Source: Bacteroidota bacterium
GTDB taxonomy: Bacteria > Bacteroidota > Bacteroidia > Bacteroidales > JACABE01
DNA: 64,000 nucleotides
Reading direction: 5' to 3'
NCBI GenBank assembly: GCA_013377005.1
Contig: JACABE010000004.1
Coordinates: forward strand, 62,001-126,000
The notes under the pieces are model-generated. The model was not told the DNA's origin and did not search any database. It was given only the letters and a program-made list of their open reading frames with translations. This document shows, in pieces, positions 15,701 to 59,641 of the stretch; positions within the stretch are counted from its first letter, which is position 1, and each line of letters starts with the position of its first letter. A program made the position numbers and the translations under genes.

Positions 15701-18700
15701 CTACATCGGTAGGGCCTGGTACAAGACCACCAACCCAACTTGAAGGTAGATTCCAATTTCCGGTTTGTGCAGAATAAATAACATTAGACATATTTGAATC
15801 TGCAGCACCTACATAAAAAGAACCACTTGAAAGATTAGCAAGTTTTAAGAGTGTTCTGTTAACCCAAGGATCAGTGTTTGTATTTGTTCCGGCAGAATGT
15901 CTTCCTGCGATAGAGGCTGATTGAACTAAATGCAAATAAGTATAATTATTTGTAGCAATTACACCAGTTGCCTGAGCTCTCATGATAATAGTTCCTGTAT
16001 CGGCAATGCCAGCACCAGGAGTTAATGTCCATGAAGAATTTGTACGACGATTTATAATATAATTTGGTACAGTATCAGCTATTGATAAACCAGTAGTTAA
16101 TCCTGCCGCATGTGCAACAGCACAAGTAATAGTTCCTCCTGCGGTTAATGCTGTAGCTGAAGAAAATGCAAGTTTAACCTCACGATTCGTTGCAACTCCA
16201 CCTACACTAACTGCCATTGGATAATATCCAATACCTGTTCCTACAGATGTTGGTAAACCAGTAATTGGGAACCAACGAGTAAACGTACCACCGGTTGTTA
16301 CAATTAAGCCTGATGAATATGACAATGTTCCAGGAACCGCAACACTTGTACCAAGTGTAAGATTATTAGTTCCAATAGTAAAATTACCGCTTGTCATAGT
16401 CAAGGTTGTACTTACTGCTAAAGTTTTGTCAAGTGTTATACCACTTGTATTATTTATAGTTAAAGCACTAATTCCTGTGGAAGGAAGTTCACTCCCTGTT
16501 GAATAGGCTGCAGCAGGGGTTGGAGCATTATAAACCCATGTATTGGTTTGTCCTGTACCCAAATTAAAACTTACAGGGCAAGTTACAGATCCACTGGATC
16601 TGGTCATTGTAAATCCCAACTGTAAACCTAAAGTAAGTGGATTTGAACCACTTAAAACTCCAGATGTAAGTATTAAAGCAGTCTTAACAACTGCATCTGC
16701 TGCATTCAACGTTATTCCGCTAGGATTATTTATCGTTAAACTACTGATTAATGCAGAAGGAGGAAGTTCATTCCCTGTTGAATAAGCTGCTGCAGGGGTA
16801 GGTGCATTATAAACCCAAGCATTAGTTGGTCCTGAAGCTAAATTACAACTTACAGGGCAAGTTACAGATCCACTGGTTCTGGTCATAGTAAATGGCAAAG
16901 TTGTTCCTCCATTACCCAAAGTAAGTGTATTTGAACCACTTAAAACACCCGATGTAAGTGTTAAAGCGCCTGTAACAATTAAGTTTGAAGCCAATGTTAT
17001 ACCACCCGGATTATTAATTAATAATGTTCCAGAAATTGAAGGAGGTAATCCTAAACCTGTTGTTTGTGCGGAAGTGCCGTTGTACGTGTAATTAACAGCT
17101 CCTGATCCGAATGCGAATATAGGAGCATTTGGAAGGCTACCTTCTGTTCTGATTACATTAAAACCTGCTGTACCACCAGCCCCGAAAGTAAGTGAAGTAG
17201 CTACCAAGCTACCTGCTGTTAAATTCAGATTTGGAGATATAGAAGCATCTTTAAAACCTAGTCCATTTGGAAGAGTAACACTACCTCCGGCAAAAGTATT
17301 ATTAATGGTTAAAGTAGTGGGTAATTGACTATTAGTAATGGTTCCATTATTAGTAAATGTTTGATTACCAACAGAACTGGAAAAAGTAAGTGACTGTGTT
17401 GAACCTGCATTTAATGTAAAAGTCCCATTGTTAACAATATTTCCAGGATAAGATGCATTCATACCTTTCATGTTCAGGTTATATTGTGTACTTAAAGAGA
17501 AAACACCTGTTCCGTTCATGGTAAAATCACCATAAACAGTTGTATGTCCAAAAAGTGTCAACCCATGATTGGCTGAAGCATTATCAACAATTAAATTGGG
17601 TGTTGCACCAGCAATTTTAAATGTTTTTGCTGTTCCAGATGAGCTATTTCCAATTTTTAAAGTTCCACCTGTAATATTTATAACAGATGCTAAATTGTAA
17701 TAATCATATTGAGTACCACCAGTACTTACTCCCTGAATGATAATGTTACCACCGCTCATGTTAAAAACACTACTTGTAGATGTTATCCCGAAACTTGCAT
17801 TAGAAGAAGAAGCATTTCCACTTATATTAACAGTTACATTCCCTGCACTTTGTGTATAAGTACATGCACTTGTAAGATTTAATCTACCTGCTACATTTAC
17901 AATACCACCTTCTATAAGCACAACAGCACCGGCTCCGTTACCCAATGAATTTCCTGTTCCTGTACCAACATTATAAGTTCCACTACTAATTCTCAATAAA
18001 CCGGTTACAGTTGGAGAACCTGCAGTACCCAAAGCAGTAAAATTAGCATTATTCAACCACAAACCACCCAAGGCTGGAATTGTATATGCTGCGGTAGTAA
18101 AAAGAGGATTAGATTGGGTATAACTTCCGCTAATTTTTAAAACACCGGCAGTATGTGTACCGATTAAACCAACGGTATTTGCTCCCTGTACAGTAAAAGG
18201 AACCTGAATATCCAAAATTGGAGGTGTAACTAATGTTGTTGCTGTTACAGCTCCTTTGTTCAGAGTTATTGAACTAAAATTTGTAGTACCTGTTCCTGAA
18301 ACAGAGGTGTTAGAACTTCCATAAAATGCTACAGTTGCTTTTCCATTAGTAGCACCTATCCACATATTAAAGATACCATTATTAAGAAGATTACCTATAC
18401 TTCCAGCAGCAGCAACATTACCACCAATATATAAAGTATGAGTAAGAGAAGCACCACCGGTAGCACCAGCGTCAAAAATTCCGCCTGCTTCAACAGTTAC
18501 ACTTCCATTTACATTAAGAGTAGCCGCAGTAGTTCCAAATCTTAATATGCTACCTGCTGCTACAGTTAAATTATAACATACAGGTGTTGCTAAGTCAATA
18601 GTATCTATGGCACCACTCACAATAGTTACATTATCAGTAGCAGTAGGTACAACACCACCTACCCATGTGGTAGTAGCACTCCATTTACCACCGGTAGCAG

Positions 18701-40071: not shown

Positions 40072-41262
40072 ATGCAGGTTATTGTTATTACAATTGGCTC
40101 CTATCCTTATGGAGGTGCAGCGACAAACAGACATTTATCATATTTAAAAGGGCTGGTAGATCTTGGTATAAATGTAAAACTTGTAATTTTGCAACCGGAT
40201 AATCAACAATCTAAATTTAGTAATCTTAGTTCAGGTCATTTTAACGGAATAAATTTTATATATGCTATCTGGTATAATAAACCTTTAAATTCTATTATAG
40301 AAAAAATATTTTATAGAATCAGGGCACATATAAATGCAATAAAGAAAATAAATCAAGAGATAAAACTGTATAAAACAGACTCAAAAATAATTATACTTTT
40401 AACAAATCCATTTGATATTCTACCTTACTTATTTATTGCTAAGAAAAATAAAATATCTTGTTTTCATGAAAGAACTGAGTATCCTTTTCTAGGTGCAAAT
40501 AGTATTATAAAAAAAATAATTTTAAATATCTATTTAACTAAGATTGTAAGTAAGTTTGACGGTATTTATTTGATATCAAATGCATTAATTAAATATTTTT
40601 CTGGTTACATTAAAGATACAGGCAGGATACTACATTTACCAATGACTGTAGAATTCGAAAGATTTAATCTCGAAAAAAAACTTAATAATAAGTATGGGAA
40701 ATATATTGCTTATTGTGGTTCAATGTACACTGATAAAGATGGTGTGCCCGATTTAATAAAAGCATTTAATATTTTTGCGAGAAACAACACAAATACAAAC
40801 TTACTTTTAATTGGAGATAACTCAGATAAAGAGAAATTTAAATTAATAAATGATTTAATTAATTCTTCAATTTATAAAGATAGAATTTTTGTAACTGGTT
40901 GGATTGAAAGAGATCAAATGCCAGAATTACTTATAAATGCTCAGATTCTTGCATTGGCAAGACCTGACAATATACAAGCAAAAGGTGGTTTTCCAACAAA
41001 ATTAGGTGAATATCTAGCTACTGGTAATCCTGTTGTAATTACCGATGTCGGAGAACATAAAGACTACTTAAAAGATGGAGTCTCTGCTTTTATTTCAGAA
41101 CCTGATAATCCATTTTTATTTGCAGAAAAGCTTTCCGAGGCTATTAATAATCCTCAAAAAGCATCATTAATTGGCAAAGAAGGTAAAAAAATTGCATTAC
41201 AACATTTTAATTACCAAATTCAATCAAAAAAGCTATTACAATTCATTAATTCAAGCATTTAA
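40072..41262 (+). CDS. GT4-type glycosyltransferase
   Basis: GT-B sugar transferase starting directly at the base after the capG stop, so translational coupling is likely. The N-terminus has GSYPYGGAATNRHLSYLKGL. The C-terminal domain has GKYIAYCGSMYTDKDGVPDLI and KGGFPTKLGEYLATGNPVVITDVGE. Both regions resemble the transferase at 28426-29631. Coupling to capG makes it a reasonable FucNAc transferase candidate, but that is inference only. Confidence 0.83.
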   Translation: MQVIVITIGSYPYGGAATNRHLSYLKGLVDLGINVKLVILQPDNQQSKFSNLSSGHFNGINFIYAIWYNKPLNSIIEKIFYRIRAHINAIKKINQEIKLYKTDSKIIILLTNPFDILPYLFIAKKNKISCFHERTEYPFLGANSIIKKIILNIYLTKIVSKFDGIYLISNALIKYFSGYIKDTGRILHLPMTVEFERFNLEKKLNNKYGKYIAYCGSMYTDKDGVPDLIKAFNIFARNNTNTNLLLIGDNSDKEKFKLINDLINSSIYKDRIFVTGWIERDQMPELLINAQILALARPDNIQAKGGFPTKLGEYLATGNPVVITDVGEHKDYLKDGVSAFISEPDNPFLFAEKLSEAINNPQKASLIGKEGKKIALQHFNYQIQSKKLLQFINSSI

Positions 41263-41263
41263 A

Positions 41264-42310
41264 ATGGTTAATGTTTCTTTTTTAGGAGATATATCTTTGA
41301 ATGATAATTATGTAACTTTATATAAAGAAGGCATTAATCCTTTTTCAAACTTAAATCCTTATTTAAAAAAAACTGATCTTATTATCGGTAATTTGGAGTG
41401 TTTTTCAAAAGGTGATTTTGGAGAAAATAAACTAAAAAACCCAAGACTTACAACAACTATAGAAACATTAAATTATTTAAAATTAATTAAACTAAATGTT
41501 GCTTGTTTGGCAAACAATCATGTTTATGATCATTTAGAAGATGGATTTAAAAAAACTACTGATTTTTTACAAAATAACGAAATCAGTTTTCTTGGAGCTT
41601 CTTATGAAAAAGGGAAAGAAAGTGAACCGAAAATTATAGAAAAAGACGATCTAAAAATTGGGTTATTTAATTATGTAACAGAAGATACACATCCAAATTT
41701 ACCAAGTAATGCCAGCGTATTTTTAAATATATTCAATTTAGATAAAGCATTGATTGATATAAAATCAATCAAAAACCGAGTTAATCATTTGGTTATTTTA
41801 TTTCATTGGGGTGGAAGTGTTGAAGGCGGAAATTATCCGGATTGGTATCAGATAACAATCTCACGTAAATTAATAGATGCAGGTGCAGATTTAATTATTG
41901 GACATCATTCACATACGTTACAACCTTATGAAGAGTATAAAGGGAAATATATTTTTTACAGTTTAGGCAATTTTTGCATTAGTAATTTCTCAATTGGGAA
42001 TAAAGATTATAATTATTACAACTACAACTATATATCCGCAATACCAACTTTTACCTTTGATAATAAAATAAAATTAAAGAAAATACTTTTTATTCAAAAC
42101 TTTGAAACCTATTATAAAGTAACTGACACTTCATTTAAATTTATATTAAAAAAAACCTTTTTTAAATTATTTATAAGGTTCAAACCTTTTTTTTATTTAT
42201 ATAAATTTGATTATAAATATTTTAAAACAATACGTAGTTTATTGCTCTGTAAAAAATTCTCTTCAAATAAAAAATTAGATATTATAAAAACTAAAATTAG
42301 AAGCAAATGA
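41264..42310 (+). CDS. CapA/PgsA-type metallophosphatase-fold protein
   Basis: Calcineurin-like fold of the PGA_cap family. Metal-ligand motifs occur in the expected order: FLGDISLND, IIGNLECF, CLANNHVYDH, LFHWGGSVEGG, GADLIIGHHSHTLQ and YSLGNFCIS. I start at the ATG at 41264, two bases after the previous stop; a longer frame inside the previous gene is unlikely. It lacks the N-terminal membrane anchor of CapA from Bacillus. The downstream ATP-grasp gene overlaps it by 4 bp (ATGA). In this setting it may act on a nucleotide or amino-acid substituent of the glycan rather than build polyglutamate. Confidence 0.85.
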   Translation: MVNVSFLGDISLNDNYVTLYKEGINPFSNLNPYLKKTDLIIGNLECFSKGDFGENKLKNPRLTTTIETLNYLKLIKLNVACLANNHVYDHLEDGFKKTTDFLQNNEISFLGASYEKGKESEPKIIEKDDLKIGLFNYVTEDTHPNLPSNASVFLNIFNLDKALIDIKSIKNRVNHLVILFHWGGSVEGGNYPDWYQITISRKLIDAGADLIIGHHSHTLQPYEEYKGKYIFYSLGNFCISNFSIGNKDYNYYNYNYISAIPTFTFDNKIKLKKILFIQNFETYYKVTDTSFKFILKKTFFKLFIRFKPFFYLYKFDYKYFKTIRSLLLCKKFSSNKKLDIIKTKIRSK

Positions 42311-43326
42311 ATAAAATTATTTTACTAACTGACTACAGAGGACATTTTTACTCTTCAACAACAACTAATTATGCTTCATTAAATTTTAATAAAGTAGCTA
42401 AAATTTTCGAAAGTAGTGGATTTGTTGTTGAAATTAAGTCATTTAGCGATATTGACTTTAGAAACCAAAATTATTCTAAAATATTTGTATTGTATCAATC
42501 TTCTGAAGATCCTGATTTAAGATATAAAAGCTTTATTGATGATATTATTTATGGATTACATTTGCAAGGAGCGATATTAATTCCAGGTTATGAGTTTTTT
42601 AAAGCGCACCATAATAAAGTTTTTATGGAAATATTAAGAGACTTGTCAGCAAATTATGAAATTAAAAATATCAAAACAAAATATTATGGTACCCTGGAAG
42701 ATTTTATAAACAGAAAATCAGATTTAAAATATCCTTTAGTATTGAAAAGTTCAGAGGGTGCCGGAAGTAGAGGTGTTGTAAAAGTAAATAATTTCAAACA
42801 GGCATTTAAAAAAGTAAAATTTCTATCAAAATCAATCTCTTTAAAGTATTCTTTTAAAGATTTTTTAAAGCAGTATTATTTTAAAAATTATGTAAGTTAT
42901 TCAAACTTTCGTAGAAAGTTAATTGCGCAAAATTTTATTAGTAACCTTAATAATGACTACAAGATATTAGTTTATCCTTATCAGATTTTTATACTTAAAA
43001 GAGAAAATCGAAAAAATGATTTTCGTGCAAGTGGTAGTGGGCTATTTGAATTCACAGATCAATTACCCGAAGGGATTTTAGAATATTCCTACCAAATTTT
43101 CAAAAGCTTTAATGTACCCTATATTTCCTTAGATGTCGCATTTAACGGAAACGCGTTTTATCTAATTGAATTTCAATTTGTTAGTTTTGGAACATTAACA
43201 CTTGAAAAATCTCCATTTCATTATGAATATCAGAATGAGAAATGGATGAAAATAGATGGCAAAAAGAATTTAGAAGATGTTTTTGCTCACAGTATCATTT
43301 ATTATTTGAAATCAAATTTTAAATGA
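42307..43326 (+). CDS. ATP-grasp enzyme (putative amino-acid or carboxylate ligase)
   Basis: A 339-residue cytoplasmic protein. The central nucleotide-binding part YPLVLKSSEGAGSRGVVKV looks like the ATP-grasp glycine-rich loop. NDYKILVYPYQIFILKREN and the acidic segment ISLDVAFNGNAFYLIEFQF match the magnesium/ATP-binding C-terminal lobe. Such ligases join a carboxylate to an amine through an acyl-phosphate. It overlaps the CapA-like gene and the next glycosyltransferase gene by 4 bp each, so the three are translationally coupled. A role in attaching an amino acid to a uronic acid or amino sugar of the glycan is plausible, not shown. Confidence 0.72.
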   Translation: MNKIILLTDYRGHFYSSTTTNYASLNFNKVAKIFESSGFVVEIKSFSDIDFRNQNYSKIFVLYQSSEDPDLRYKSFIDDIIYGLHLQGAILIPGYEFFKAHHNKVFMEILRDLSANYEIKNIKTKYYGTLEDFINRKSDLKYPLVLKSSEGAGSRGVVKVNNFKQAFKKVKFLSKSISLKYSFKDFLKQYYFKNYVSYSNFRRKLIAQNFISNLNNDYKILVYPYQIFILKRENRKNDFRASGSGLFEFTDQLPEGILEYSYQIFKSFNVPYISLDVAFNGNAFYLIEFQFVSFGTLTLEKSPFHYEYQNEKWMKIDGKKNLEDVFAHSIIYYLKSNFK

Positions 43327-44731: not shown

Positions 44732-45376
44732 ATGATTCGTATAAGAAAAAAAATTTCATTAAATCTATTTTTATCAGCAATTAATGGATTTTATAGAAAC
44801 TATTTTCAAACAAAACGTAAAAATTTTGGATACATAGATTACACAGCACGGGTAAGATTTCCAATTTTAATCAAAGGTATTGAAAACGTTTTTTTGTATG
44901 AGAATACCCATATACTTGGGCATTCAGTGTTAATAACTACTAAAGCAAAATTTATCATGAAAAAAAATTCTGCTGCAGCAGAAGGATTAACAGTAGTTAC
45001 TGGAAGCCATAATCCTGTTATTGGTGAATTTTTCCTTCAAAAAGCTGCTGAAGATATTCAAGAAGCTAAAGATGTTATTGTGGAAGAGGATGTTTGGATT
45101 GCTGCAAATGTAACACTTCTATCAGGGATTACTGTTGGTCGGGGCGCTATATTAGGTAGTGGATCTATTTGTAGAAACTCAATTCCTCCTTATGCTATTG
45201 TTATTGGAAATCCAGCAAAAATTATTGGATTTAAGTTTACACCTGAAGAGGTAATTACTCACGAAAAAAAGTTATATTCTGAAATTGAAAGAATTAATAT
45301 AGATTTATTAATAAACAATTACAATAAATATTTTATTAATAAAATAAATGAAATCAAATCTTTTGTTAAATTATAA
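44732..45376 (+). CDS. Left-handed beta-helix (hexapeptide) acyltransferase
   Basis: Acyltransferase of the WbbJ/maltose-acetyltransferase group, 214 residues. Hexapeptide turns are visible in IVEEDVWIAANVTLLSGITVGRG, followed by the closing PPYAIVIGNPAKIIGFKF. The likely catalytic histidine lies in VTGSHNP. It would transfer an acetyl or longer acyl group to a sugar hydroxyl or amine. An ACP gene starts 10 bp after its stop, so acyl-ACP rather than acetyl-CoA may be the donor; this is inference. Its start follows two hairpins and a consensus -7 box. Confidence 0.83.
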   Translation: MIRIRKKISLNLFLSAINGFYRNYFQTKRKNFGYIDYTARVRFPILIKGIENVFLYENTHILGHSVLITTKAKFIMKKNSAAAEGLTVVTGSHNPVIGEFFLQKAAEDIQEAKDVIVEEDVWIAANVTLLSGITVGRGAILGSGSICRNSIPPYAIVIGNPAKIIGFKFTPEEVITHEKKLYSEIERINIDLLINNYNKYFINKINEIKSFVKL

Positions 45377-45386
45377 AAATAATATT

Positions 45387-45614
45387 ATGGAATTACAAGA
45401 TTTTATTAAAGAGTTCGCAGATCAATTTGATGATACTGATCCAAAAGAATTTACCGCATCTACGAAATTTCAAGAATTTGATGAATGGAGTTCATTAACT
45501 ACAATGGTAATAATTGCTTTTGTTAAAACAAAATTAGGTAAAAATATTACTGGTACAGAAATACGTAGTTGCACAACTGTTAAAGAGCTATTTGATTTTA
45601 TTGTATCAAAATGA
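45387..45614 (+). CDS. Acyl carrier protein (first copy)
   Basis: Small acidic four-helix carrier protein of 75 residues, from the ATG at 45387 (MELQDFIKEFADQF). The phosphopantetheine attachment serine is most likely Ser36 in DEWSSLT, the position of the DSL motif, where the aspartate is replaced by serine (WSSL). It is followed with a 4-bp overlap by a FabG-like reductase. The earlier in-frame ATG at 45348 lies inside the acyltransferase gene and is less likely. It probably serves this locus rather than bulk fatty-acid synthesis. Confidence 0.85.
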   Translation: MELQDFIKEFADQFDDTDPKEFTASTKFQEFDEWSSLTTMVIIAFVKTKLGKNITGTEIRSCTTVKELFDFIVSK

Positions 45615-46363
45615 TAGCGACTTACAATCCTTATTCATTATTAGAAAAAAAGATTCTTGTTACTGGTGCTTCATCCGGTATTGGGAAAAGTATTGCTATA
45701 GAATGCTCAAAATTAGGTGCTAAATTAGTTATTACAGGTCGTAATTTTGACCGATTAAAAGAAACAATGTCTTTACTTACTGGAGATGGGCATATATTGA
45801 AAGTTTTAGACTTAAATGATACAGATAATCTACAGGAATTTATCCTTGATATTCCAAAATTGGATGGAATAGTTTATTGTGCAGGAATTCAAAAAACCTG
45901 CCCAACAAAATTAATTCAAAGAGTAGATTTAGATGAAGTGTTTGAAACAAATTTTTTCTCCATAATAGACTTAAACACAACTATTCTAAGTAAAAAGCTT
46001 CTAAACAAAGAAGCTTCGATTGTGTTTATATCATCCACAGCTGCAGGTATTGTAGCTGAATATGGTAATGCAATTTATAGTGCAACAAAAGGTGCTTTAA
46101 CATCTTTTGCTAAAGTTTTAGCACTCGAATTAATAGCTCAACGAATAAGAGTGAATTGTATACTACCAGGTATGATAAAAACACCTCTTTTAAACAAAAT
46201 ATTAGTGGATGAAGAACAGTTAAAGAAAGATGAAGAAAGATATCCTCTGGGTTATGGTAATCCCGAAGATGTTGCATATGCTGTAATTTATTTGTTATCC
46301 AATGCTTCTAAATGGATAACTGGTACAAATTTATTATTGGATGGTGGTTTAACATTAAAATAA
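45611..46363 (+). CDS. 3-oxoacyl-ACP reductase-like SDR (FabG-like)
   Basis: Classical SDR of 250 residues. Cofactor motif VTGASSGIGKSIA lies near residues 15-27, with an NRDR-like region at TGRNFDR suggesting NADP. Catalytic Tyr156 and Lys160 lie in YSATK, after VFISSTAAG. The C-terminus NASKWITGTNLLLDGG is the standard ending. It overlaps the ACP gene by 4 bp and is followed by a KAS III gene, so beta-ketoacyl-ACP reduction is the natural role. Sugar oxidoreduction by an SDR in a glycan locus is the alternative. Confidence 0.85.
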   Translation: MIATYNPYSLLEKKILVTGASSGIGKSIAIECSKLGAKLVITGRNFDRLKETMSLLTGDGHILKVLDLNDTDNLQEFILDIPKLDGIVYCAGIQKTCPTKLIQRVDLDEVFETNFFSIIDLNTTILSKKLLNKEASIVFISSTAAGIVAEYGNAIYSATKGALTSFAKVLALELIAQRIRVNCILPGMIKTPLLNKILVDEEQLKKDEERYPLGYGNPEDVAYAVIYLLSNASKWITGTNLLLDGGLTLK

Positions 46364-46368
46364 TATTT

Positions 46369-47373
46369 ATGAAAGCTTATATAAAAAATATTTCTTACTA
46401 TTTACCTGAAAATATATTAACCAACGAAGAATTAGTTAAAGAATTTCCAGAATGGAGTGTTGAAAAAGTTGCTGATAAAATTGGAATTAAACAAAGGCAT
46501 GTTTCTGCAAATGAAGAAACAGCTGGAGATATGGCTGTTAAAGCAGCTGAAAAGCTTTTTCAAGAACATACAATAAAACCAGAATCTATAGATTTTATAC
46601 TATTTTGCACACAAAGTCCTGATTATTTTCTGCCTACAACTGCCTGTTTACTGCAAAACAAACTAGGTATTCCAACAACTTCAGGAGCAATAGATTTCAA
46701 TCTTGGGTGCTCAGGTTATGTTTATGGTTTATCATTAGCTAAAGGATTATTATTTGCCAATATTGCTAAAAATGTATTACTTCTTACTTCCGAAACATAT
46801 ACTAAATATATTCATGCACTTGATAAAAGTAATCGTTCAATATTCGGTGATGGAGCCACTGCTACTTTAATTTCAACAGATGGATTTGCCGAAATTGGAG
46901 ATTTTGTAGTAGGAACTGATGGACAAGGCGCCAGCAATTTAATAATTAAAACAGGTTGCTCTCGCCATCCAGAAAGAAAAAACACCCTTGATTCTGATGA
47001 TGGTGGCTATCTCGTTTCTCCTGATCATTTATATATGAATGGTTCCGAAATTTTTAATTTTACTTTAGAAGCTGTCCCCAAATTAATAAATTCAACTTTA
47101 GCTAAAAATAATTTAGAATTATCTGAAATTGATCTATTTATTTTACATCAAGCAAATAAATTTATGTTAAACACTCTACGAAAAGTTTGTGCCATTGATA
47201 AAGAAAACTTCTATCTTGATTTAGAAGACGTTGGAAATACAGTTTCTTCAACAATACCAATAGCAATTTCGCGAAGTAAAAATTTGAGTCTATTAAAAAA
47301 TGGATCAAAAATACTATTGGCTGGCTTTGGTGTTGGCTATTCTTGGGGTGGATGTGTTTTGACATGTAAATAA
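46369..47373 (+). CDS. 3-oxoacyl-ACP synthase III (FabH-like)
   Basis: Condensing enzyme of the KAS III family, 334 residues from the ATG at 46369 (MKAYIKNISYYLP). The catalytic triad is complete: Cys114 in NLGCSGY, His260 in ILHQANK and Asn290 in DVGNTVSST. The C-terminus ILLAGFGVGYSWGGCVL is family-typical. It would start or extend an acyl chain with malonyl-ACP on the ACP two genes upstream. No FabZ/FabI homologue is encoded beside it, so the product may remain a 3-hydroxyacyl chain, or general enzymes may finish it. Confidence 0.9.
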   Translation: MKAYIKNISYYLPENILTNEELVKEFPEWSVEKVADKIGIKQRHVSANEETAGDMAVKAAEKLFQEHTIKPESIDFILFCTQSPDYFLPTTACLLQNKLGIPTTSGAIDFNLGCSGYVYGLSLAKGLLFANIAKNVLLLTSETYTKYIHALDKSNRSIFGDGATATLISTDGFAEIGDFVVGTDGQGASNLIIKTGCSRHPERKNTLDSDDGGYLVSPDHLYMNGSEIFNFTLEAVPKLINSTLAKNNLELSEIDLFILHQANKFMLNTLRKVCAIDKENFYLDLEDVGNTVSSTIPIAISRSKNLSLLKNGSKILLAGFGVGYSWGGCVLTCK

Positions 47374-51578: not shown

Positions 51579-51809
51579 ATGAATATACAAGAAAATGTCG
51601 TTAATTTAATTGCCAGGGTATTAGAAGTTACTCCAGAAAAAATAAATGAAGATACTGCAATAGGTGATATTCCTTCATGGGATTCTTTAAGGCATGTAAC
51701 AATTATTATTGAACTTGAAAAACATTTTAAAGTGAATTTCGAACCAGAAATTATTATGAACATGGAAGATGTTAGTGATATTGTTGCAGCTATTGAAGAA
51801 CGAATTTGA
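51579..51809 (+). CDS. Acyl carrier protein (second copy)
   Basis: A 76-residue carrier protein from the ATG at 51579 (MNIQENVVNLIARVLEV). The phosphopantetheine site is Ser36 in WDSLRHV, matching DSL fully, unlike the first ACP. It is acidic and helical, with a closing EDVSDIVAAIEERI. An AMP-forming acyl ligase starts 13 bp downstream, followed by an alcohol dehydrogenase and a LuxE-LuxC fusion, all in one direction. This ACP likely carries the acyl group that the module activates and reduces. A TTG-started extension from 51531 is unlikely. Confidence 0.9.
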   Translation: MNIQENVVNLIARVLEVTPEKINEDTAIGDIPSWDSLRHVTIIIELEKHFKVNFEPEIIMNMEDVSDIVAAIEERI

Positions 51810-51822
51810 AAATTAAAAATTT

Positions 51823-53280
51823 ATGTTAGAAAGTGTTGTAAATCAAATTTTTTCTAAAGCACTGCTTTTCCCGAATAAAAAGGCACTCATTGAAGAAAAT
51901 AAAGCTATATCTTATTCAGAATTAGCTTCAAAAATTTTAGCAACAAAATTTGCTTTGGAAAACGATCTTAACATAAAAAAAGGGGATCGGGTGATAATTT
52001 CTGCAAATAAACAAATCGGGTTTGTATATGCTTATTTTGGAGCACATTTAGCAGGTGTAATAGTAGTTCCTGTTGATTTTGATACAAATCAAACACGATT
52101 ACAATATATAATTCTGAAAATAAAGCCAGCATTAATGATAGGTTTTGAAAACCCAATTTCGAACATAATGAATATTCCAATTGATTATTTTGATAATTTA
52201 AAAGGAAGCTCTGAAATAAACAAAGAGTTTCCTCAGATAGATGAAATTGCTGATATAGTTTTTACTACAGGCACAACAGGAGATCCTAAAGGTGTAATAT
52301 TAAAACACCGGAATATAGCTGCATCTGCAAATAACATCAATATATTTATACAAAACACATCAGAAGATGTCGAATTACTTGCTTTACCTGTTTCTCATTC
52401 CTTCGGATTAGGAAGAATAAGATGCGTTCTTTCAAAGGGAGCTACACTTATTTTATTGGGAAGCTTTACAAATGTAAAAAAAATATTCAGGATTATTGAA
52501 ACACATGGTGTAACCGGCTTCGCAATGGTACCTTCAAGTTGGGCATATATTAAAAAGATGAGCGGAACAAAAATTGGTAAATTTTCTCATTTGATTAAAT
52601 ATATCGAGATTGGCAGTGCTCCTATGCCTATGGAAGACAAACATCTGCTAATAAAATTATTTCCTCTGACCAGAATTTGTATGCATTATGGATTAACTGA
52701 GGCATCCCGGTCATCTTTTATAGAATTTAACAGTCAAAAAGATAAACTTGAAACAGTTGGAAAATCAACTCCAAATGTGTTAATTACAATAAAAGACGAA
52801 AACGGAACAGATTTACCTATTGGTGTTGAAGGAGAAATTTGTGTAAAAGGAGATTCTGTTACAAGTGGTTACTGGAATGATACAAAAACAACTACAGATT
52901 CTTTTTGGAGTGATTCTTTTCGTACCGGAGATTGGGGCGTTTTTGATGAATCTGGATATCTTTCTTTAAAAAGCAGGAAAAAAGAAATAATTAATGTTGG
53001 CGGTAAAAAAGTCAGTCCAATTGAGGTTGAGGTTGTATTAGTAACATATCCCGGAATAAAAGAATGTGCATGTATCGGAATAGAAGATCCGAATCAGCTA
53101 TTGGGTGAAGTTATTAAAGCTTTTATAGTATTAGATGATGGAATTAATCTAAATTTTAATGATGTTAAGAAATATGTCGGCGAGCATCTTGAGGCATATA
53201 AAATTCCTGTTGTTTTTGAAACAATCCCTGAAATACCTAAAACTTCATCAGGTAAAATTCAACGTTTGATTTTAAAATAA
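51823..53280 (+). CDS. AMP-forming acyl-CoA/acyl-ACP synthetase
   Basis: ANL-superfamily adenylating ligase of 485 residues. Signature motifs are complete: the phosphate-binding loop IVFTTGTTGDPKGV, MHYGLTEASRSS, the FRTGDWG segment and GKKVSPIEVE. The closing PKTSSGKIQR contains the adenylation lysine. It would activate a fatty or other carboxylic acid as acyl-AMP and load it on the adjacent ACP or on CoA. There are no condensation or NRPS domains attached. Its partners (ACP before; alcohol dehydrogenase and acyl reductase after) suggest supply of a substrate to be reduced. Confidence 0.9.
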   Translation: MLESVVNQIFSKALLFPNKKALIEENKAISYSELASKILATKFALENDLNIKKGDRVIISANKQIGFVYAYFGAHLAGVIVVPVDFDTNQTRLQYIILKIKPALMIGFENPISNIMNIPIDYFDNLKGSSEINKEFPQIDEIADIVFTTGTTGDPKGVILKHRNIAASANNINIFIQNTSEDVELLALPVSHSFGLGRIRCVLSKGATLILLGSFTNVKKIFRIIETHGVTGFAMVPSSWAYIKKMSGTKIGKFSHLIKYIEIGSAPMPMEDKHLLIKLFPLTRICMHYGLTEASRSSFIEFNSQKDKLETVGKSTPNVLITIKDENGTDLPIGVEGEICVKGDSVTSGYWNDTKTTTDSFWSDSFRTGDWGVFDESGYLSLKSRKKEIINVGGKKVSPIEVEVVLVTYPGIKECACIGIEDPNQLLGEVIKAFIVLDDGINLNFNDVKKYVGEHLEAYKIPVVFETIPEIPKTSSGKIQRLILK

Positions 53281-53287
53281 TAAATAT

Positions 53288-54421
53288 ATGTGGGAACCAC
53301 AAGGGCTTTATAGTAAATTTCTATTAAAACAGCCAACTTTATTGTTTGGTGAAAATTCGATCAGAGGTTTAAGAAATTTTCCTTGTTCAAAAGTTGCTGT
53401 AATACACGGCAAAGGTTTAACTGAAGAATCAAAAAGTGTTTTTATTTCAACTTTTGGCGTATTTGACTTGCTGTTCATAAATAAGACCTGGAAAAATGAA
53501 CCAATTTTAGAAGAGCTACATACTACTATTCAAATACTTGAAGATTTTAAACCTGATCTCATTATTGCTGTGGGTGGAGGTGCCGTAATTGATGGGAGTA
53601 AAATGGCTCGTTTATATTATGAATTCCCTTTTTTTAATGTTATAAATCCAAAATTTACATATTTAGAATGGAGTACTAAATTCATTGCAATTCCAACTAC
53701 TGTGGGAAGTGGCTCTGAAATATCTTCAGCTATTGTTTTATTTAATACTGTAAAAAAAACAAAAGAGATGATTGTAAACCATTCTCTTTTACCCGATGTT
53801 GTTATTCTTGATCCTTTATTTATCAAAGGTTCATCAGAGAAAATAATACTCTCTTCTTCTGTTGATGCTTTATCACATATTATTGAAGGTTATGTATCAA
53901 AAGTAGAAAACACATTTTCTGATGTTTATGCTGAAAAATCCTGTCAAATTATTTATGAAACATTTTCTTCATTAGCATTTAATTTAAATACTACAGATAT
54001 TAATCGTTTGCAATTTGCAGGATACTTGGGTGGCATTGTGCAAAATCACTGCATAGTTGGCAGTACGCATGCAATTGCGCATCAATTAACCAGTTTTGGT
54101 TTTTCTCATTCCATAGCTATCTCTTTACTTTTAACTTCAGTAATAAAATCAAATGCAATTAACTTAGAAACTAAATTAAGATACGATTTGCTTGCTAAGA
54201 GATGTGGTATTCAAGATGGTATTGATGGATTAATTGATTTTATTGATCATTTAATTATTAAAATGGATATTGAAGAAGAGAAAAACAGATTAAGATATTT
54301 AATCCCCTCTTTAATTTCTGATCAGACTTTTATTGAAAATGTACAAAAAGACAAAGGAGGATTTGGTAACCCTATAACAATAACGGAAGATTATATTATA
54401 AATATTTTAAATATGATTTAA
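53288..54421 (+). CDS. Iron-containing alcohol dehydrogenase family protein
   Basis: Group III (Fe-type) alcohol dehydrogenase fold, 377 residues. The nucleotide loop is IIAVGGGAVIDGSKMA, and the family block IPTTVGSGSEISSAIV follows. The metal ligands appear complete: Asp and His in VDALSHIIEGY, and two histidines in GSTHAIAHQL. It would interconvert an aldehyde and an alcohol with NAD(P)H. It overlaps the LuxE-LuxC gene by 1 bp, so it probably reduces the aldehyde released by that enzyme. KdnB-type sugar oxidases belong to the same family, so a sugar substrate is an alternative. Confidence 0.86.
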   Translation: MWEPQGLYSKFLLKQPTLLFGENSIRGLRNFPCSKVAVIHGKGLTEESKSVFISTFGVFDLLFINKTWKNEPILEELHTTIQILEDFKPDLIIAVGGGAVIDGSKMARLYYEFPFFNVINPKFTYLEWSTKFIAIPTTVGSGSEISSAIVLFNTVKKTKEMIVNHSLLPDVVILDPLFIKGSSEKIILSSSVDALSHIIEGYVSKVENTFSDVYAEKSCQIIYETFSSLAFNLNTTDINRLQFAGYLGGIVQNHCIVGSTHAIAHQLTSFGFSHSIAISLLLTSVIKSNAINLETKLRYDLLAKRCGIQDGIDGLIDFIDHLIIKMDIEEEKNRLRYLIPSLISDQTFIENVQKDKGGFGNPITITEDYIINILNMI

Positions 54422-56907
54422 TGATGGAAGATTCATTAGTAGAAGTATTAATAAATAAACCACCCTATAATTTTTCTAAACAGGAGAAAGATATTGATTT
54501 TTATAATGCTTTACTGGAAGAGTTAAATTTTCATTATACGAATAATAAATTATTCAAACATTTTTGTGATAATAAGAATTTTAATCCACAAAACTTTGTT
54601 GGGAATTTATCGGAAATTCCATATATTTCAGTAAATGTATTTAAAGAATTAGGAGAAGATTTGATTTCTGTCCCAAACGAAGATATTAAATTTAATTTAC
54701 AGTCATCTGCTACTTCAGGCATACCAAGCACTATCCTTGTAGATAAAATCACATCTAAAAGGCAGTCAAAAGTAATGATTAAAGTGGTTCAAGAGTTTAT
54801 TGGAAAAGATCGTAAACCTTTTCTGGTTATGGATATAAATCCTCAAAGCGAGTATCGTAATTTATTGGGAGCAAGGTATGCAGCAATAAGTGGATATTTA
54901 AATTTCGCCAATGAAATTAGCTATTTTTTAAAGGTTGATGAAAAAAATAAGTATTTTTTTGATATAAAAGGTATCCGTGAATATATAAGCAAACTAACAG
55001 CTTCTCAGCCAGCTATTATTTTTGGATTTACATATATTTTGTTTTCTGAAGTGATAAGACCATATCTTGAAAAAGGTGAAATGTTTCAGTTACCTGTAGG
55101 ATCAAAAATAATTCATATTGGGGGATGGAAAAAATTAGAAAACGAAAAAGTTACTAAAGAAGAGTTTAACAAAAATGCATCTGTCCTTTTTGGGATAAAT
55201 CCTGATGACGTAATTGATATATATGGGTTCACAGAACAAATGGGATTAAATTATCCTGACTGTCTTTGTGGTTTTAAACATGCTTCTTTATATTCAGAAG
55301 TTATTATTCGTGATACAGTTACTAAAGAAGTATTGCCTGAAGGAAATGAAGGAATGTTGGAATTTTTGTCACCTATCCCTCATTCATATCCCGGTAACGT
55401 CGTTCTTACAGATGATATTGGAATCATAGATAAAAATCCATGCCCCTATGGTAAACAGGGAACTCGTTTTAAGATTATAGGAAGATTGAAAAAAGCAGAA
55501 ATCAGAGGGTGTGGAGACATTTTATCAAGTAAATTGAAATTTTTAGATTCTAAAATAATTAGTATTAATGATGAAGTACAATTATTCAAAGTAGAGTTTT
55601 GGAAAGGTGAAGATGTATCAAACTTAAAATCAAATGAAGAGCAATTAACAAGTATAATTGATCAATTAAATCAATCTGTGAAATGGCTTAGGAGTCAACC
55701 TATTGATGCTTTAATTGGCTTGATTGGGAAAATTGCATTAAAATGGATGGACTTTGAAAAGTCAGAAAACGAAATTTTAAAAGACAAAGGTTTATCATTT
55801 TTATCCGCTTGGTGTAGCCCTGAACATCTGGTTCGAATTTCAACAATTGGGTTAAGAGGAAACCGAAAATATATGAATTCTTTTCTTCCAATGGAAGATT
55901 CTACAATTCAGTATATGAAAGCTACTTCCCGTGGTCTTGTTTGTCACTGGTTGGCAGGGAATGTACAAGTTTTGGGAATGTTTGCTTTAGTGCAATCAAT
56001 TTTAACTAAAAATGTGAATCTTTTGAAAATATCTTCAAAAGATGATGGTATATTTTCATTAATGTTAAGTGCTTTCGAAAATGTATCCTTTACAACGAAA
56101 GGTGGGTATACAATAAAAGCAGATGATTTGCTAAAAACAATCGGAGTTATATATTATGATCATAATGAGTCCAAATTAGGAGAAATTATGTCTAAGGCTG
56201 CAAAAGCAAGAATTGCCTGGGGTGGACGAGATGCAGTACAAACAGTATCAACTTATCCAGCAGCTTATGATTGTGAAGATCTTATTTTAGGTCCAAAACT
56301 TTCATTTTCTGTTATTGCTAAAGAAAAACTGGAAGATGAACGGAAAGTAAAAAAATTAGCACGCAAAATTGCCGTTGATGCAAGTGTTTTTGACCAGACA
56401 GGATGTGCATCACCCCACAATTTATTTATTGAGCGAGGTGGTAATATTTCTCCAAAAGAATTTTCAGTATTACTTGCCGAAGGAATGAAAAAAACAACTT
56501 TACAAATCCCCAAAGGGAGTATTTCGCCTGAACAGATTTCTGCAATTCACTCTATACGAAGCTTATATGATTTCAAAGGTATTGCATGGACAAGCACAGA
56601 TTCAACATGGACTGTATTGTACAGTGAAGATATGAATTTAAATCAACCTGTATATTCACGTGTACTATTTGTACATCCAGTTAATCATATTGATGAAACG
56701 CTTATCTTTATAAATGATAACATTCAAACAATAGGATTGGCAGCTACAGGTAAAAAGGCTATTTCATACGCAGATAAAGCAACAGCCAAAGGAGCAATGC
56801 GTTTACCAGATTTAGGAAAAATGCTTAATTTTGAGTCTCCATGGGATGGTTTATTTATTATGGATAGACTCGTTCGTTGGAATACAATGGGTGGACCTCT
56901 TGTTTAA
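54421..56907 (+). CDS. LuxE-LuxC fusion: acyl-protein synthetase/acyl reductase
   Basis: Two enzymes of the bioluminescence fatty-acid reductase complex fused in one 828-residue chain. Residues ~1-385 resemble LuxE/PaaK-type acyl-protein synthetase: NFVGNLSEIPYISVNVFKEL, the loop QSSATSGIPSTI, and DIYGFTEQMGLNYPDC. Residues ~440-828 resemble LuxC acyl reductase: LVCHWLAGNVQVLGMFALVQ, RIAWGGRDAVQTVS and the likely acyl-enzyme Cys662 in FDQTGCASPHNLF. Together they would activate an acyl chain, move it to the cysteine and reduce it to an aldehyde with NADPH. No luciferase (luxAB) is present. Reading is continuous, without frameshift. Two-gene versions are common; the fusion is less so. Confidence 0.87.
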   Translation: MMEDSLVEVLINKPPYNFSKQEKDIDFYNALLEELNFHYTNNKLFKHFCDNKNFNPQNFVGNLSEIPYISVNVFKELGEDLISVPNEDIKFNLQSSATSGIPSTILVDKITSKRQSKVMIKVVQEFIGKDRKPFLVMDINPQSEYRNLLGARYAAISGYLNFANEISYFLKVDEKNKYFFDIKGIREYISKLTASQPAIIFGFTYILFSEVIRPYLEKGEMFQLPVGSKIIHIGGWKKLENEKVTKEEFNKNASVLFGINPDDVIDIYGFTEQMGLNYPDCLCGFKHASLYSEVIIRDTVTKEVLPEGNEGMLEFLSPIPHSYPGNVVLTDDIGIIDKNPCPYGKQGTRFKIIGRLKKAEIRGCGDILSSKLKFLDSKIISINDEVQLFKVEFWKGEDVSNLKSNEEQLTSIIDQLNQSVKWLRSQPIDALIGLIGKIALKWMDFEKSENEILKDKGLSFLSAWCSPEHLVRISTIGLRGNRKYMNSFLPMEDSTIQYMKATSRGLVCHWLAGNVQVLGMFALVQSILTKNVNLLKISSKDDGIFSLMLSAFENVSFTTKGGYTIKADDLLKTIGVIYYDHNESKLGEIMSKAAKARIAWGGRDAVQTVSTYPAAYDCEDLILGPKLSFSVIAKEKLEDERKVKKLARKIAVDASVFDQTGCASPHNLFIERGGNISPKEFSVLLAEGMKKTTLQIPKGSISPEQISAIHSIRSLYDFKGIAWTSTDSTWTVLYSEDMNLNQPVYSRVLFVHPVNHIDETLIFINDNIQTIGLAATGKKAISYADKATAKGAMRLPDLGKMLNFESPWDGLFIMDRLVRWNTMGGPLV

Positions 56908-56984: not shown

Positions 56985-57953
56985 ATGAATATTGAAATTA
57001 AAAGAACAACCGAATTAAATTCAAATGAATGGGAGATATATACCAGTTCATTCAATCAGGTTTTTAATAAAATATTTACTATTGATGATTTTAAACAAAA
57101 ATATCTTACTACTATTGATGGTTTATCATACCATTCTCTATTAATGCAGGATGAACTTATTGTTGGCGGTTGCACCGTAATTCCTTTCGAATATTTTATT
57201 AAAAATACAATAGTTCGTGTTGGATTAGCTGTGGACGTTTTTATTTTAGATACCTATCGTTCACACCCTATGATTTTATATCAAATGTATAATAAGTTGA
57301 AAAAGTCACTTACTCCCAATAAGATTGAAATCGTTATTGCAGTTCCAAATGACACTGCATTTTCATATTGGAAAAATATAATAAAATGGAAAGAGGTGGG
57401 CCTTTTAAATTATAATGTACTACCTGTAAAGTTAGGGAATGTAATATCTAAACTTCCTGCAATATTAAATATATTTTCATTTTTTGGCTACCAAATTTTG
57501 TTATGTTGTTCGTATTTGTTTCATTCCACTGAAAGAATATCTGATATCAGAATAAATCGTACAAACAGAATTATTGAAAAGCAAAGGTACACTGCAGAGC
57601 ATAAAAAAATCATACTTCAAGATGCATTTTTTGGGTACAGAATTGTTAATGAAGAAGGAATAATTGCTTGCTATTTAATTGATTTCTATAACACTAAAAA
57701 ATTAATTAGAGACTCTTATTCGCTTAACAAAGCAATCAGATACATCTGTTCAAATGAAAAAGTAGATTTGATTATCTTTATTGGGAAACTTACTTTTTCC
57801 CAAATTCTTTTAATTAAAGTCCCTTTCAAATCAGAACCGAGACATTTGCATTTCATGATTGATATTATAATCGATGATAATATTAAAGATATCGATTTTG
57901 TTTACAATATTAATAATTGGGATTTTGGTCTATTTAATTATGATGTAAGATAA
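56985..57953 (+). CDS. GNAT-like N-acyltransferase
   Basis: A 322-residue cytoplasmic protein. The N-terminal half has the GNAT pattern: GGCTVIPFEYF, then VRVGLAVDVFILDTYRSHPMILYQMY, which resembles the acyl-CoA-binding strand and loop. The C-terminal half is a degenerate second domain. I take the ATG at 56985; the frame can be extended to a TTG. GNAT or FemAB-like proteins are frequent companions of exosortase/PEP-CTERM loci. It could acylate an amino sugar or a lipid precursor. The assignment is from fold pattern only. Confidence 0.6.
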   Translation: MNIEIKRTTELNSNEWEIYTSSFNQVFNKIFTIDDFKQKYLTTIDGLSYHSLLMQDELIVGGCTVIPFEYFIKNTIVRVGLAVDVFILDTYRSHPMILYQMYNKLKKSLTPNKIEIVIAVPNDTAFSYWKNIIKWKEVGLLNYNVLPVKLGNVISKLPAILNIFSFFGYQILLCCSYLFHSTERISDIRINRTNRIIEKQRYTAEHKKIILQDAFFGYRIVNEEGIIACYLIDFYNTKKLIRDSYSLNKAIRYICSNEKVDLIIFIGKLTFSQILLIKVPFKSEPRHLHFMIDIIIDDNIKDIDFVYNINNWDFGLFNYDVR

Positions 57954-57983: not shown

Positions 57984-58832
57984 ATGAAAATATTAACTTT
58001 TGATATTGAAGAGTGGTTTCATCTACTCGACAATAATCTCGCCAATACAGAAACAAGTTGGGAAACTTATGAGGTACGTATTCATAAAAATATGGAGCGA
58101 ATCTATAAAATATTGGACGAAACAAATACTCAAGCAACATTTTTTTGCTTAGGTTGGATTGCTAAAAAATATCCTGAAATAATCAAACAGATTGACCAAT
58201 TAGGATATGAAATAGGATGTCATTCTGATCAACATCAATTAGTTTATGAACTATCCCCAGCTTTGTTTAAACGAGATACCGAAGTTGCAATTAACAGACT
58301 TGAAGATATTTTGGGGAAAAAAATTAAATCATATCGTGCTCCATGTTTTTCGTTTACATCAGAAACACCTTGGGCTTTTGAAGTATTAGCTAGCTTAGGA
58401 ATTACTCATGATAGTTCTATTTTCCCATCTGCAAGAATACAAGGTGGTTATGTAAATTTCCCATCAAAAATGCCTAGTATTTTAAATTGCAATGGAATCC
58501 ACATCAAAGAAATTCCTATTACTACAACAAAATTTTTAGGGCAAAATATTGTTTTTAGTGGTGGTGGCTACTTTCGGCTATTTCCTTATTCATTCATTCA
58601 TTATTGGACAAAAAAACAGGATTTCGTAATGGCATATATGCATCCACGTGATTTAGATGCCGATCAGCCTATGATTAATGAATTATCATTAAGTCGTAAA
58701 TTCAAATCATATTATGGACTAAATACAGCAGAAGCAAAATTTAAAAAATGGTTAACTGATTTTAAATTTACGGATATCAGAGAATTTGATAAAAACTTTG
58801 ATTGGAATAATGCAAAAATTATCAATTTATAA
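57984..58832 (+). CDS. Polysaccharide deacetylase, PEP-CTERM-locus-like subfamily
   Basis: NodB-fold metal-dependent deacetylase, 282 residues. The catalytic aspartates are in LTFDIEEWFH. The histidine-rich metal site is GCHSDQH, followed by SYRAPCFSF. The C-terminal half (FSGGGYFRLFPYSFIHYWTK..VMAYMHPRDLD) has the layout of the DUF3473-type extension of deacetylases associated with XrtA loci. It would remove N-acetyl groups from the glycan or from a precursor. No signal peptide is visible. Its place directly before the exosortase gene supports the exosortase-locus reading. Confidence 0.87.
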   Translation: MKILTFDIEEWFHLLDNNLANTETSWETYEVRIHKNMERIYKILDETNTQATFFCLGWIAKKYPEIIKQIDQLGYEIGCHSDQHQLVYELSPALFKRDTEVAINRLEDILGKKIKSYRAPCFSFTSETPWAFEVLASLGITHDSSIFPSARIQGGYVNFPSKMPSILNCNGIHIKEIPITTTKFLGQNIVFSGGGYFRLFPYSFIHYWTKKQDFVMAYMHPRDLDADQPMINELSLSRKFKSYYGLNTAEAKFKKWLTDFKFTDIREFDKNFDWNNAKIINL

Positions 58833-58990: not shown

Positions 58991-59641
58991 ATGCAAAAAA
59001 TACTTCAAGAGCTTAAAGCTAATTTTCGGAAACTTAATTTATTTCTTAACAATAATTACCTGCTGAAAACATTTGGTATCAGGTTACTAATTTTGATGGG
59101 TATTGGAGCTATCGTACTATTCATTTTAAGAAATAATCCTGAGCTAAAATATAAAGTACAACATGCTCAGTTTATATATGATTTTTACAGAATCATTATG
59201 TATTCAAGCTTATACTTTCTAAGAGCAATAGGTTTTGATGCTTATATTTATTATTCTGAAACTATGTACAAATATGGTGTGTATGCTATTGGAATAAATG
59301 GATCCGGATCTGTTTTTATGGGAATTTCTTGTATTGGAATTACTTTAATGGGAGGTTTTGTAGCATTAATGGTTTCGTTTCCCGGTAAACTAAAACATAA
59401 ATTGTGGTTTATCCCTTGTGGTCTTATCATTATTCAGCTATTAAATGTTCTACGAATGAGTACTCTTGCCGTTTTAATACATAAAGGATTTAAACATACA
59501 TTTAAAGATTATAACTTCTTAGGAATTTTAAAATTTAATCATCACGACCTTTTCAATTTTTTTATTTATATCGTTATTTTCGGGATGTTTGTCCTTTATA
59601 TAAATAAATTCGCTGTGAAGAAATATCAGGAAAAGGAATAA
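58991..59641 (+). CDS. Exosortase/archaeosortase-family protein
   Basis: Integral membrane protease/transpeptidase that cleaves C-terminal sorting signals such as PEP-CTERM at the inner membrane. The 216-residue protein has five or six hydrophobic segments. The three invariant residues can be placed: Cys114 in MGISCIGITLMGG, Arg155 in LLNVLRMSTLA and a histidine at His184-His185 in KFNHHDLFNFF. This is the Cys-Arg-His triad of the family. It is short, like the Bacteroidota exosortases, and lacks an EpsI domain. A strong terminator follows, so it closes the locus. A candidate substrate with a PID-CTERM-like tail lies at 6390-6599. I cannot assign a subclass. Confidence 0.88.
   Translation: MQKILQELKANFRKLNLFLNNNYLLKTFGIRLLILMGIGAIVLFILRNNPELKYKVQHAQFIYDFYRIIMYSSLYFLRAIGFDAYIYYSETMYKYGVYAIGINGSGSVFMGISCIGITLMGGFVALMVSFPGKLKHKLWFIPCGLIIIQLLNVLRMSTLAVLIHKGFKHTFKDYNFLGILKFNHHDLFNFFIYIVIFGMFVLYINKFAVKKYQEKE

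Follow-up and report, generated by a model that had tools for sequence, protein, structure and literature searches.

The best described counterparts of the gene considered here lie in the O-antigen locus of Vibrio cholerae O1. The O1 antigen genes are found between gmhD and rjg, with VC0248–VC0252 as the tetronate genes (PMC3441752), and VC0249 is listed as RfbL, VC0250 as an iron-containing alcohol dehydrogenase (Fe-ADH), VC0251 as the acyl protein synthase/acyl-CoA reductase RfbN, and VC0252 as an acetyltransferase (PMC9201469). According to PMC12208996, RfbL activates 2,4-dihydroxybutanoic acid, either for CoA or for the carrier RfbK. Flagellin glycosylation islands, too, have been described to contain LuxE/LuxC sets with an acyl carrier protein (ACP) and a ligase (PMC7874193, PMC4875605). 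We analyzed 64,000 nucleotides of DNA from a Bacteroidota bacterium (contig JACABE010000004.1, positions 62,001 to 126,000; this whole stretch is the window) that carry one gene, at 54421–56907 of the window, in which a LuxE-like acyl-protein synthetase and a LuxC-like acyl reductase are fused (LuxEC).

The operon around this gene has the V. cholerae O1 parts in the same order, and this kind of fusion is therefore already known: it is a further copy of a widespread enzyme set whose best known example is the V. cholerae O1 O-antigen. In that locus, both enzyme names fall on one gene, which follows the Fe-ADH and acid ligase genes and precedes an acetyltransferase gene. The window likewise has LuxE and LuxC in one gene, which follows genes for a carrier protein, an acid ligase, and an Fe-ADH within a surface-polysaccharide locus; the next gene, in the acyltransferase slot of an RfbN-type module, encodes a probable GNAT protein, although the evidence for this is weak. 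The window differs from V. cholerae O1 in being a polysaccharide locus from Bacteroidota that carries FucNAc-type and gmd/fcl-like genes, in that no perosamine aminotransferase was noticed in it, and in having a tandem GNAT protein as its transferase candidate, with a DUF3473 deacetylase and an exosortase-family gene after it. A preliminary description of the window had implied that the fusion was novel, but RfbN (VC0251) already unites both names in one gene (PMC9201469, PMC3441752) and LuxE/LuxC sets are known from the flagellin islands. We consider it likely that the gene encodes the acid-to-aldehyde reductase of a module that supplies a cell-surface polysaccharide with a short, hydroxylated acyl group. 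This step, known mainly from the O-antigen of cholera, would belong to a widespread module, probably spread horizontally, for decorating bacterial surface sugars.

Three other systems share part of this arrangement. The flagellin glycosylation islands (Aeromonas group II and Enterobacteriaceae) also place LuxE and LuxC in a glycan locus together with ACP, reductase, and AMP-ligase, but their luxE and luxC are separate genes and the reductase is of the FabG type instead of Fe-ADH. A plasmid glycan locus of Deinococcus sp. NW-56 (L033) has ACP, a short-chain dehydrogenase/reductase (SDR), AMP-ligase, LuxE, LuxC, and an acetyltransferase beside glycosyltransferases and a sugar transferase; here LuxE and LuxC are separate, overlapping genes, and the SDR stands in place of Fe-ADH. 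Finally, both domains and both catalytic cysteines of the window protein align with the LuxC-LuxE complex of bioluminescence (PDB 7xc6), which differs in its separate subunits, its long-chain acyl substrate, and the presence of luciferase.

The LuxE-LuxC fusion and its operon

The fusion has the following parts.

54421–56907, + strand: LuxE-LuxC fusion, acyl-protein synthetase plus acyl reductase (RfbN type), 828 aa, ATG start
54442–55536, + strand: LuxE domain, residues 8–372, PaaK-like adenylating fold (Pfam; Foldseek match to PaaK 2y4o)
55537–55695, + strand: inter-domain linker, residues 373–425 (low model confidence at 375–385)
55696–56880, + strand: LuxC domain, residues 426–820, aldehyde-dehydrogenase-like fold (Pfam, Foldseek)

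The open reading frames (ORFs) of the window include 54421–56907 as a single unbroken frame, as the preliminary description had reported. Pfam matched LuxE (PF04443; E 1.2e-107, 360.7 bits against a cut-off of 24.9) and LuxC (PF05893; E 2.2e-79, 267.6 bits against a cut-off of 21) over their full lengths, and the scan of the 828-residue protein found no other domain. Cys364 of the LuxE half (codon 55510–55512) aligns with the C-terminal LuxE cysteine of 7xc6_E. Cys662 of the LuxC half (codon 56404–56406), previously proposed as the LuxC-type cysteine, does align with that cysteine in 7xc6_A, and both residues are invariant in 72/72 aligned proteins. The only sequence matches in the Protein Data Bank (PDB) were the LuxE and LuxC chains of 7xc6. 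An AlphaFold2 model of the fusion reached a mean predicted local distance difference test score (pLDDT) of 84 and a predicted template modeling score (pTM) of 0.71; Foldseek ranked LuxC 7xc6_A as its best match, followed by aldehyde dehydrogenases and PaaK adenylate-forming enzymes, which fit the two domains. A frame artifact or chance fusion was rejected on the grounds that 37 other fused genes were found and that linker length is conserved (about 61–79 residues in the window's clade). These results confirm that the fusion is real and no sequencing artifact. Direct channeling of the acyl group within the fusion, as suggested earlier, is plausible.

Five further genes make up the operon.

51579–51809, + strand: acyl carrier protein of the module (PF00550, E 2.4e-07; DSL phosphopantetheine-serine motif)
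51823–53280, + strand: AMP-forming acid:CoA/ACP ligase, RfbL-like (PF00501, E 3.7e-63)
53288–54421, + strand: iron-containing alcohol dehydrogenase, Fe-ADH (PF00465, E 7.3e-25)
56985–57953, + strand: probable tandem-GNAT acyltransferase (weak model; positioned as the GNAT-like genes of Vibrio and other loci)
57984–58832, + strand: polysaccharide deacetylase with DUF3473, XrtA-system type (PF11959, E 4.1e-33; PF01522, E 3.3e-18)

The operon order is thus ACP, AMP-ligase, Fe-ADH, LuxE-LuxC, the probable tandem-GNAT transferase, and the polysaccharide deacetylase. The genes upstream of LuxEC are co-directional, with gaps of 7–13 bases plus a one-base overlap between the Fe-ADH stop codon and the LuxEC start. 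The ACP belongs to a cluster of 54 members in 53 sequences, the window counted. The Fe-ADH retains the metal-ligand positions (Asp, His) in an alignment with 3zdr, occupies the same position as in relative loci of the Fe-ADH type, and matches reductases of small aldehydes (acetaldehyde/alcohol, lactaldehyde, 1,3-propanediol, 4-hydroxybutyrate). The protein encoded at 56985–57953 matched no Pfam or NCBIfam family; its model is poor (pLDDT 53), and the structural matches are to GNAT and N-myristoyltransferase folds. Three things link it to the GNATs of other loci: its place in the gene order, a profile match that is weak, and an iterative search limited to a small set. The deacetylase matches TIGR03006 with an E of 1.2e-70, yet falls below the cut-off of that model. 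Directly after it, at 58991–59641, lies an exosortase-family gene (XrtX/XrtY-like) that scores above the TIGR04178 cut-off.

The fusion falls outside the bioluminescence families. Against the luminous equivalogs it scored 82.0 bits for LuxE (NF052244, cut-off 550) and 114.6 bits for LuxC (NF052251, cut-off 750), and no protein in the whole genome, which is 97% complete, matched Bac_luciferase (PF00296). Light emission was rejected given these scores, far below the cut-offs, and a genome without a luciferase-family protein. The wider locus consists of glycan genes (gmd/fcl-like, UDP-sugar, WecG-type, FucNAc-type). The earlier observations that luciferase is missing and that the gene lies among sugar genes both stand, and this setting supports the earlier view that the aldehyde serves a purpose other than light: it points to the decoration of a glycan, and away from both light and degradation.

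Relatives of the fusion and their gene neighborhoods

Scanned against 84,980 species genomes, an alignment (A1) yielded 80 loci that were kept. Among the 72 proteins placed in a tree, 38 are fused, the window's included. The window's LuxEC falls in a clade of 31 rows, all of them fused (31/31), with a support of 99 in the Shimodaira-Hasegawa-like approximate likelihood ratio test (SH-aLRT); the tree was a quick one, supported by SH-aLRT without bootstraps. This clade spans Bacteroidota, Bacillota, Pseudomonadota including Vibrio, Nitrospirota, and Verrucomicrobiota, and its members include the proteins of V. fortis and Vibrio sp. 99-8-1 (46–47% identity). Seven more fused genes sit elsewhere in the tree, so the fusion was gained or lost several times. 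Plasmid matches in Pantoea, Priestia, and Lactiplantibacillus are distant (about 23–25% identity) and lie among transporter and other genes; no viral relatives were found with a single-sequence query.

A search of 39 other related genomes (three congeners and 36 more) found no full-length relative, which suggests horizontal acquisition, and the window's LuxEC was probably acquired in this way. Horizontal acquisition is usual for surface-glycan cassettes. The same probable gain could be taken to mean that the cassette is vestigial or misplaced, making a small aldehyde for some unrelated use with no role in glycans. We regard this as very improbable, since the catalytic residues are intact, the operon is tight, and an identical gene order recurs in distant phyla, in many cases in glycan loci.

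The order ACP, ligase, Fe-ADH, LuxEC recurs in loci of Lachnospiraceae, Vibrio, Nitrospirota, and Verrucomicrobiota. In four Vibrio loci the module comes after nonulosonate-type sugar genes and is followed by GNAT and deacetylase genes, in the order seen in the window; the Vibrio loci L061 and L129 also have heptosyltransferase-like and gmhD-like genes nearby. In the loci inspected around the window's clade, no degradative operon was seen. Since the neighbors there are biosynthetic and the LuxC-type cysteine is present, neither of the two results that the preliminary description had named as refuting its reading was obtained. Across the 80 loci, an AMP-ligase lies near LuxE/C in 74, an SDR in 36, Fe-ADH in 29, and β-ketoacyl-ACP synthase III (KASIII) in 12; holo-ACP synthase genes are near the module in four.

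Two further partners bear on the identity of the acyl group. The first is a gene of the lactate/malate dehydrogenase (LDH/MDH) family, present near LuxE/C in 7/80 loci (L047, L049, L050, L059, L103, L110, L120). All seven encode Arg at the malate-specificity position, where the lactate dehydrogenase 1ldn has Gln; this position is known to determine whether malate or lactate is preferred. The canonical malate-dehydrogenase motif is found in L047, L049, and L050, and the best PDB matches of L049 are malate dehydrogenases. The other four are LDH-like by sequence: L059 falls just below the L-LDH cut-off, and the best PDB match of L120 is named L-lactate dehydrogenase, yet this PDB match carries the Arg too. 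The presence of malate-type Arg in genes near several relatives offers a concrete substrate hypothesis.

The second partner is a transketolase split into a pair of genes (N and C halves), found near LuxE/C in 19/80 loci (for example, L052:4107-5078 and L102:11013-11843), mostly with an SDR in place of Fe-ADH. This pair may mark a different acyl product. It also raises the possibility that the aldehyde, instead of being reduced to an alcohol, has its carbon chain lengthened by KASIII (by transketolase in other loci) to give a longer polyhydroxy acyl group. The frequency of the transketolase pair and of KASIII fits this idea, as does the finding that Fe-ADH and transketolase seldom occur together (1/29 versus 18/51, Fisher p 0.0009 uncorrected). 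On the tree, however, the anticorrelation is lost (6 independent pairs, 0.7 the same way versus 0.6 the other way), and the window itself has Fe-ADH and no transketolase that we could see; chain extension is therefore a quite improbable account of this locus. Fe-ADH and transketolase as alternative fates of the aldehyde are likewise not claimed, given that the raw counts are significant and the independent branches are not.

Proposed chemistry and substrate

We infer the chemistry throughout, including the identity of the substrate and the acceptor sugar. In the proposed route, the LuxE half would adenylate a small (di)carboxylic acid at one carboxyl and form a thioester on Cys364. The LuxC half would take the acyl group onto Cys662 and reduce it with NAD(P)H to a semialdehyde, which the adjacent Fe-ADH could convert to an omega-hydroxy acid. 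The AMP-ligase would then load the remaining carboxyl onto the dedicated ACP, and a transferase, probably the GNAT-like protein encoded at 56985–57953, would move the acyl group onto a sugar amine that the neighboring deacetylase may expose.

Rather than a fatty acid, the likeliest substrate is a small dicarboxylic acid (malate or succinate). From malate, the most likely product would be 2,4-dihydroxybutyryl, the acyl group of tetronate in V. cholerae O1; from succinate, it would be 4-hydroxybutyryl. The preliminary description had implied a fatty aldehyde or alcohol. Such a reading, in which a fatty acid or fatty acyl-ACP would be the substrate of LuxEC and the resulting long-chain aldehyde or alcohol would serve a lipid or a lipid-modified glycan, can draw on the fatty acyl groups used by LuxE and LuxC of luminous bacteria, on the lipid component and liposugar idea suggested for the flagellin islands (PMC7874193, PMC4875605), and on the ACP and KASIII genes of the window. 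It is made unlikely by the low scores of the protein against the luminous LuxC and LuxE equivalogs, and no chain-elongation set was noticed beyond one KASIII and one SDR. The superfamily of the partner Fe-ADH is rich in small-aldehyde reductases and a malate-type dehydrogenase adjoins some relatives, so that a small polar acid is the likelier substrate.

Several points weigh against the proposed route and its small-acid substrate. No LDH/MDH-type gene lies near LuxEC in the window, and no aminotransferase gene was noticed in the window, so this locus fixes neither precursor nor amino-sugar acceptor; malate and succinate both remain candidates. LDH/MDH-type genes occur in only seven of the 80 loci, and these are mostly not of the window's Fe-ADH type. 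The GNAT-like protein matches the GNATs of other loci weakly (hhalign E 0.026, probability 2%), and its poor model offers a hint only. The likeness of V. cholerae RfbN to the window protein was drawn from published annotation and gene order. Morona 1995, the source of the tetronate pathway, reportedly calls that pathway putative in its title. The window locus and the Lachnospiraceae loci provide further systems for testing this homology-based pathway.

A more specific proposal, which we advance tentatively and consider possible rather than probable, is that ACP, ligase, Fe-ADH, LuxEC, GNAT, and deacetylase form a transferable deacetylate-and-reacylate cassette. The deacetylase would free a sugar amine, and a tandem-GNAT family for which Pfam and NCBIfam have no model would add the dicarboxylate-derived omega-hydroxyacyl group from ACP; in sister loci, transketolase would extend the LuxEC aldehyde instead.

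Other genes of the window

Three genes upstream of the module have an unsure link to it.

45348–45614, + strand: second ACP-like ORF, 88 aa (clusters with ACP-like ORFs)
45611–46363, + strand: SDR reductase, FabG-like (PF13561, E 2.3e-47)
46369–47373, + strand: β-ketoacyl-ACP synthase III, FabH-like (PRK09352, above cut-off)

The first of these has no Pfam match, and in relative loci the ORFs with which it clusters are followed by SDR and KASIII genes. KASIII recurs near LuxEC in Bacteroidales loci, and the three genes at 45348–47373 are ordered as in those loci; this set may make a second acyl group. Further upstream, an ATP-grasp-like protein (42307–43326, weak matches only) adjoins a CapA-like PGA_cap protein (41171–42310) and could serve to join an amino acid or an acid to the glycan. 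A repetitive secreted-type protein of 4277 residues is encoded at 6759–19592 on the minus strand. Elsewhere, a second LuxE-like protein, distantly related and about 330 residues long, is encoded at G000:C45:19962-20900 and in about 110/395 Bacteroidota genomes, mostly at 23–30% identity.

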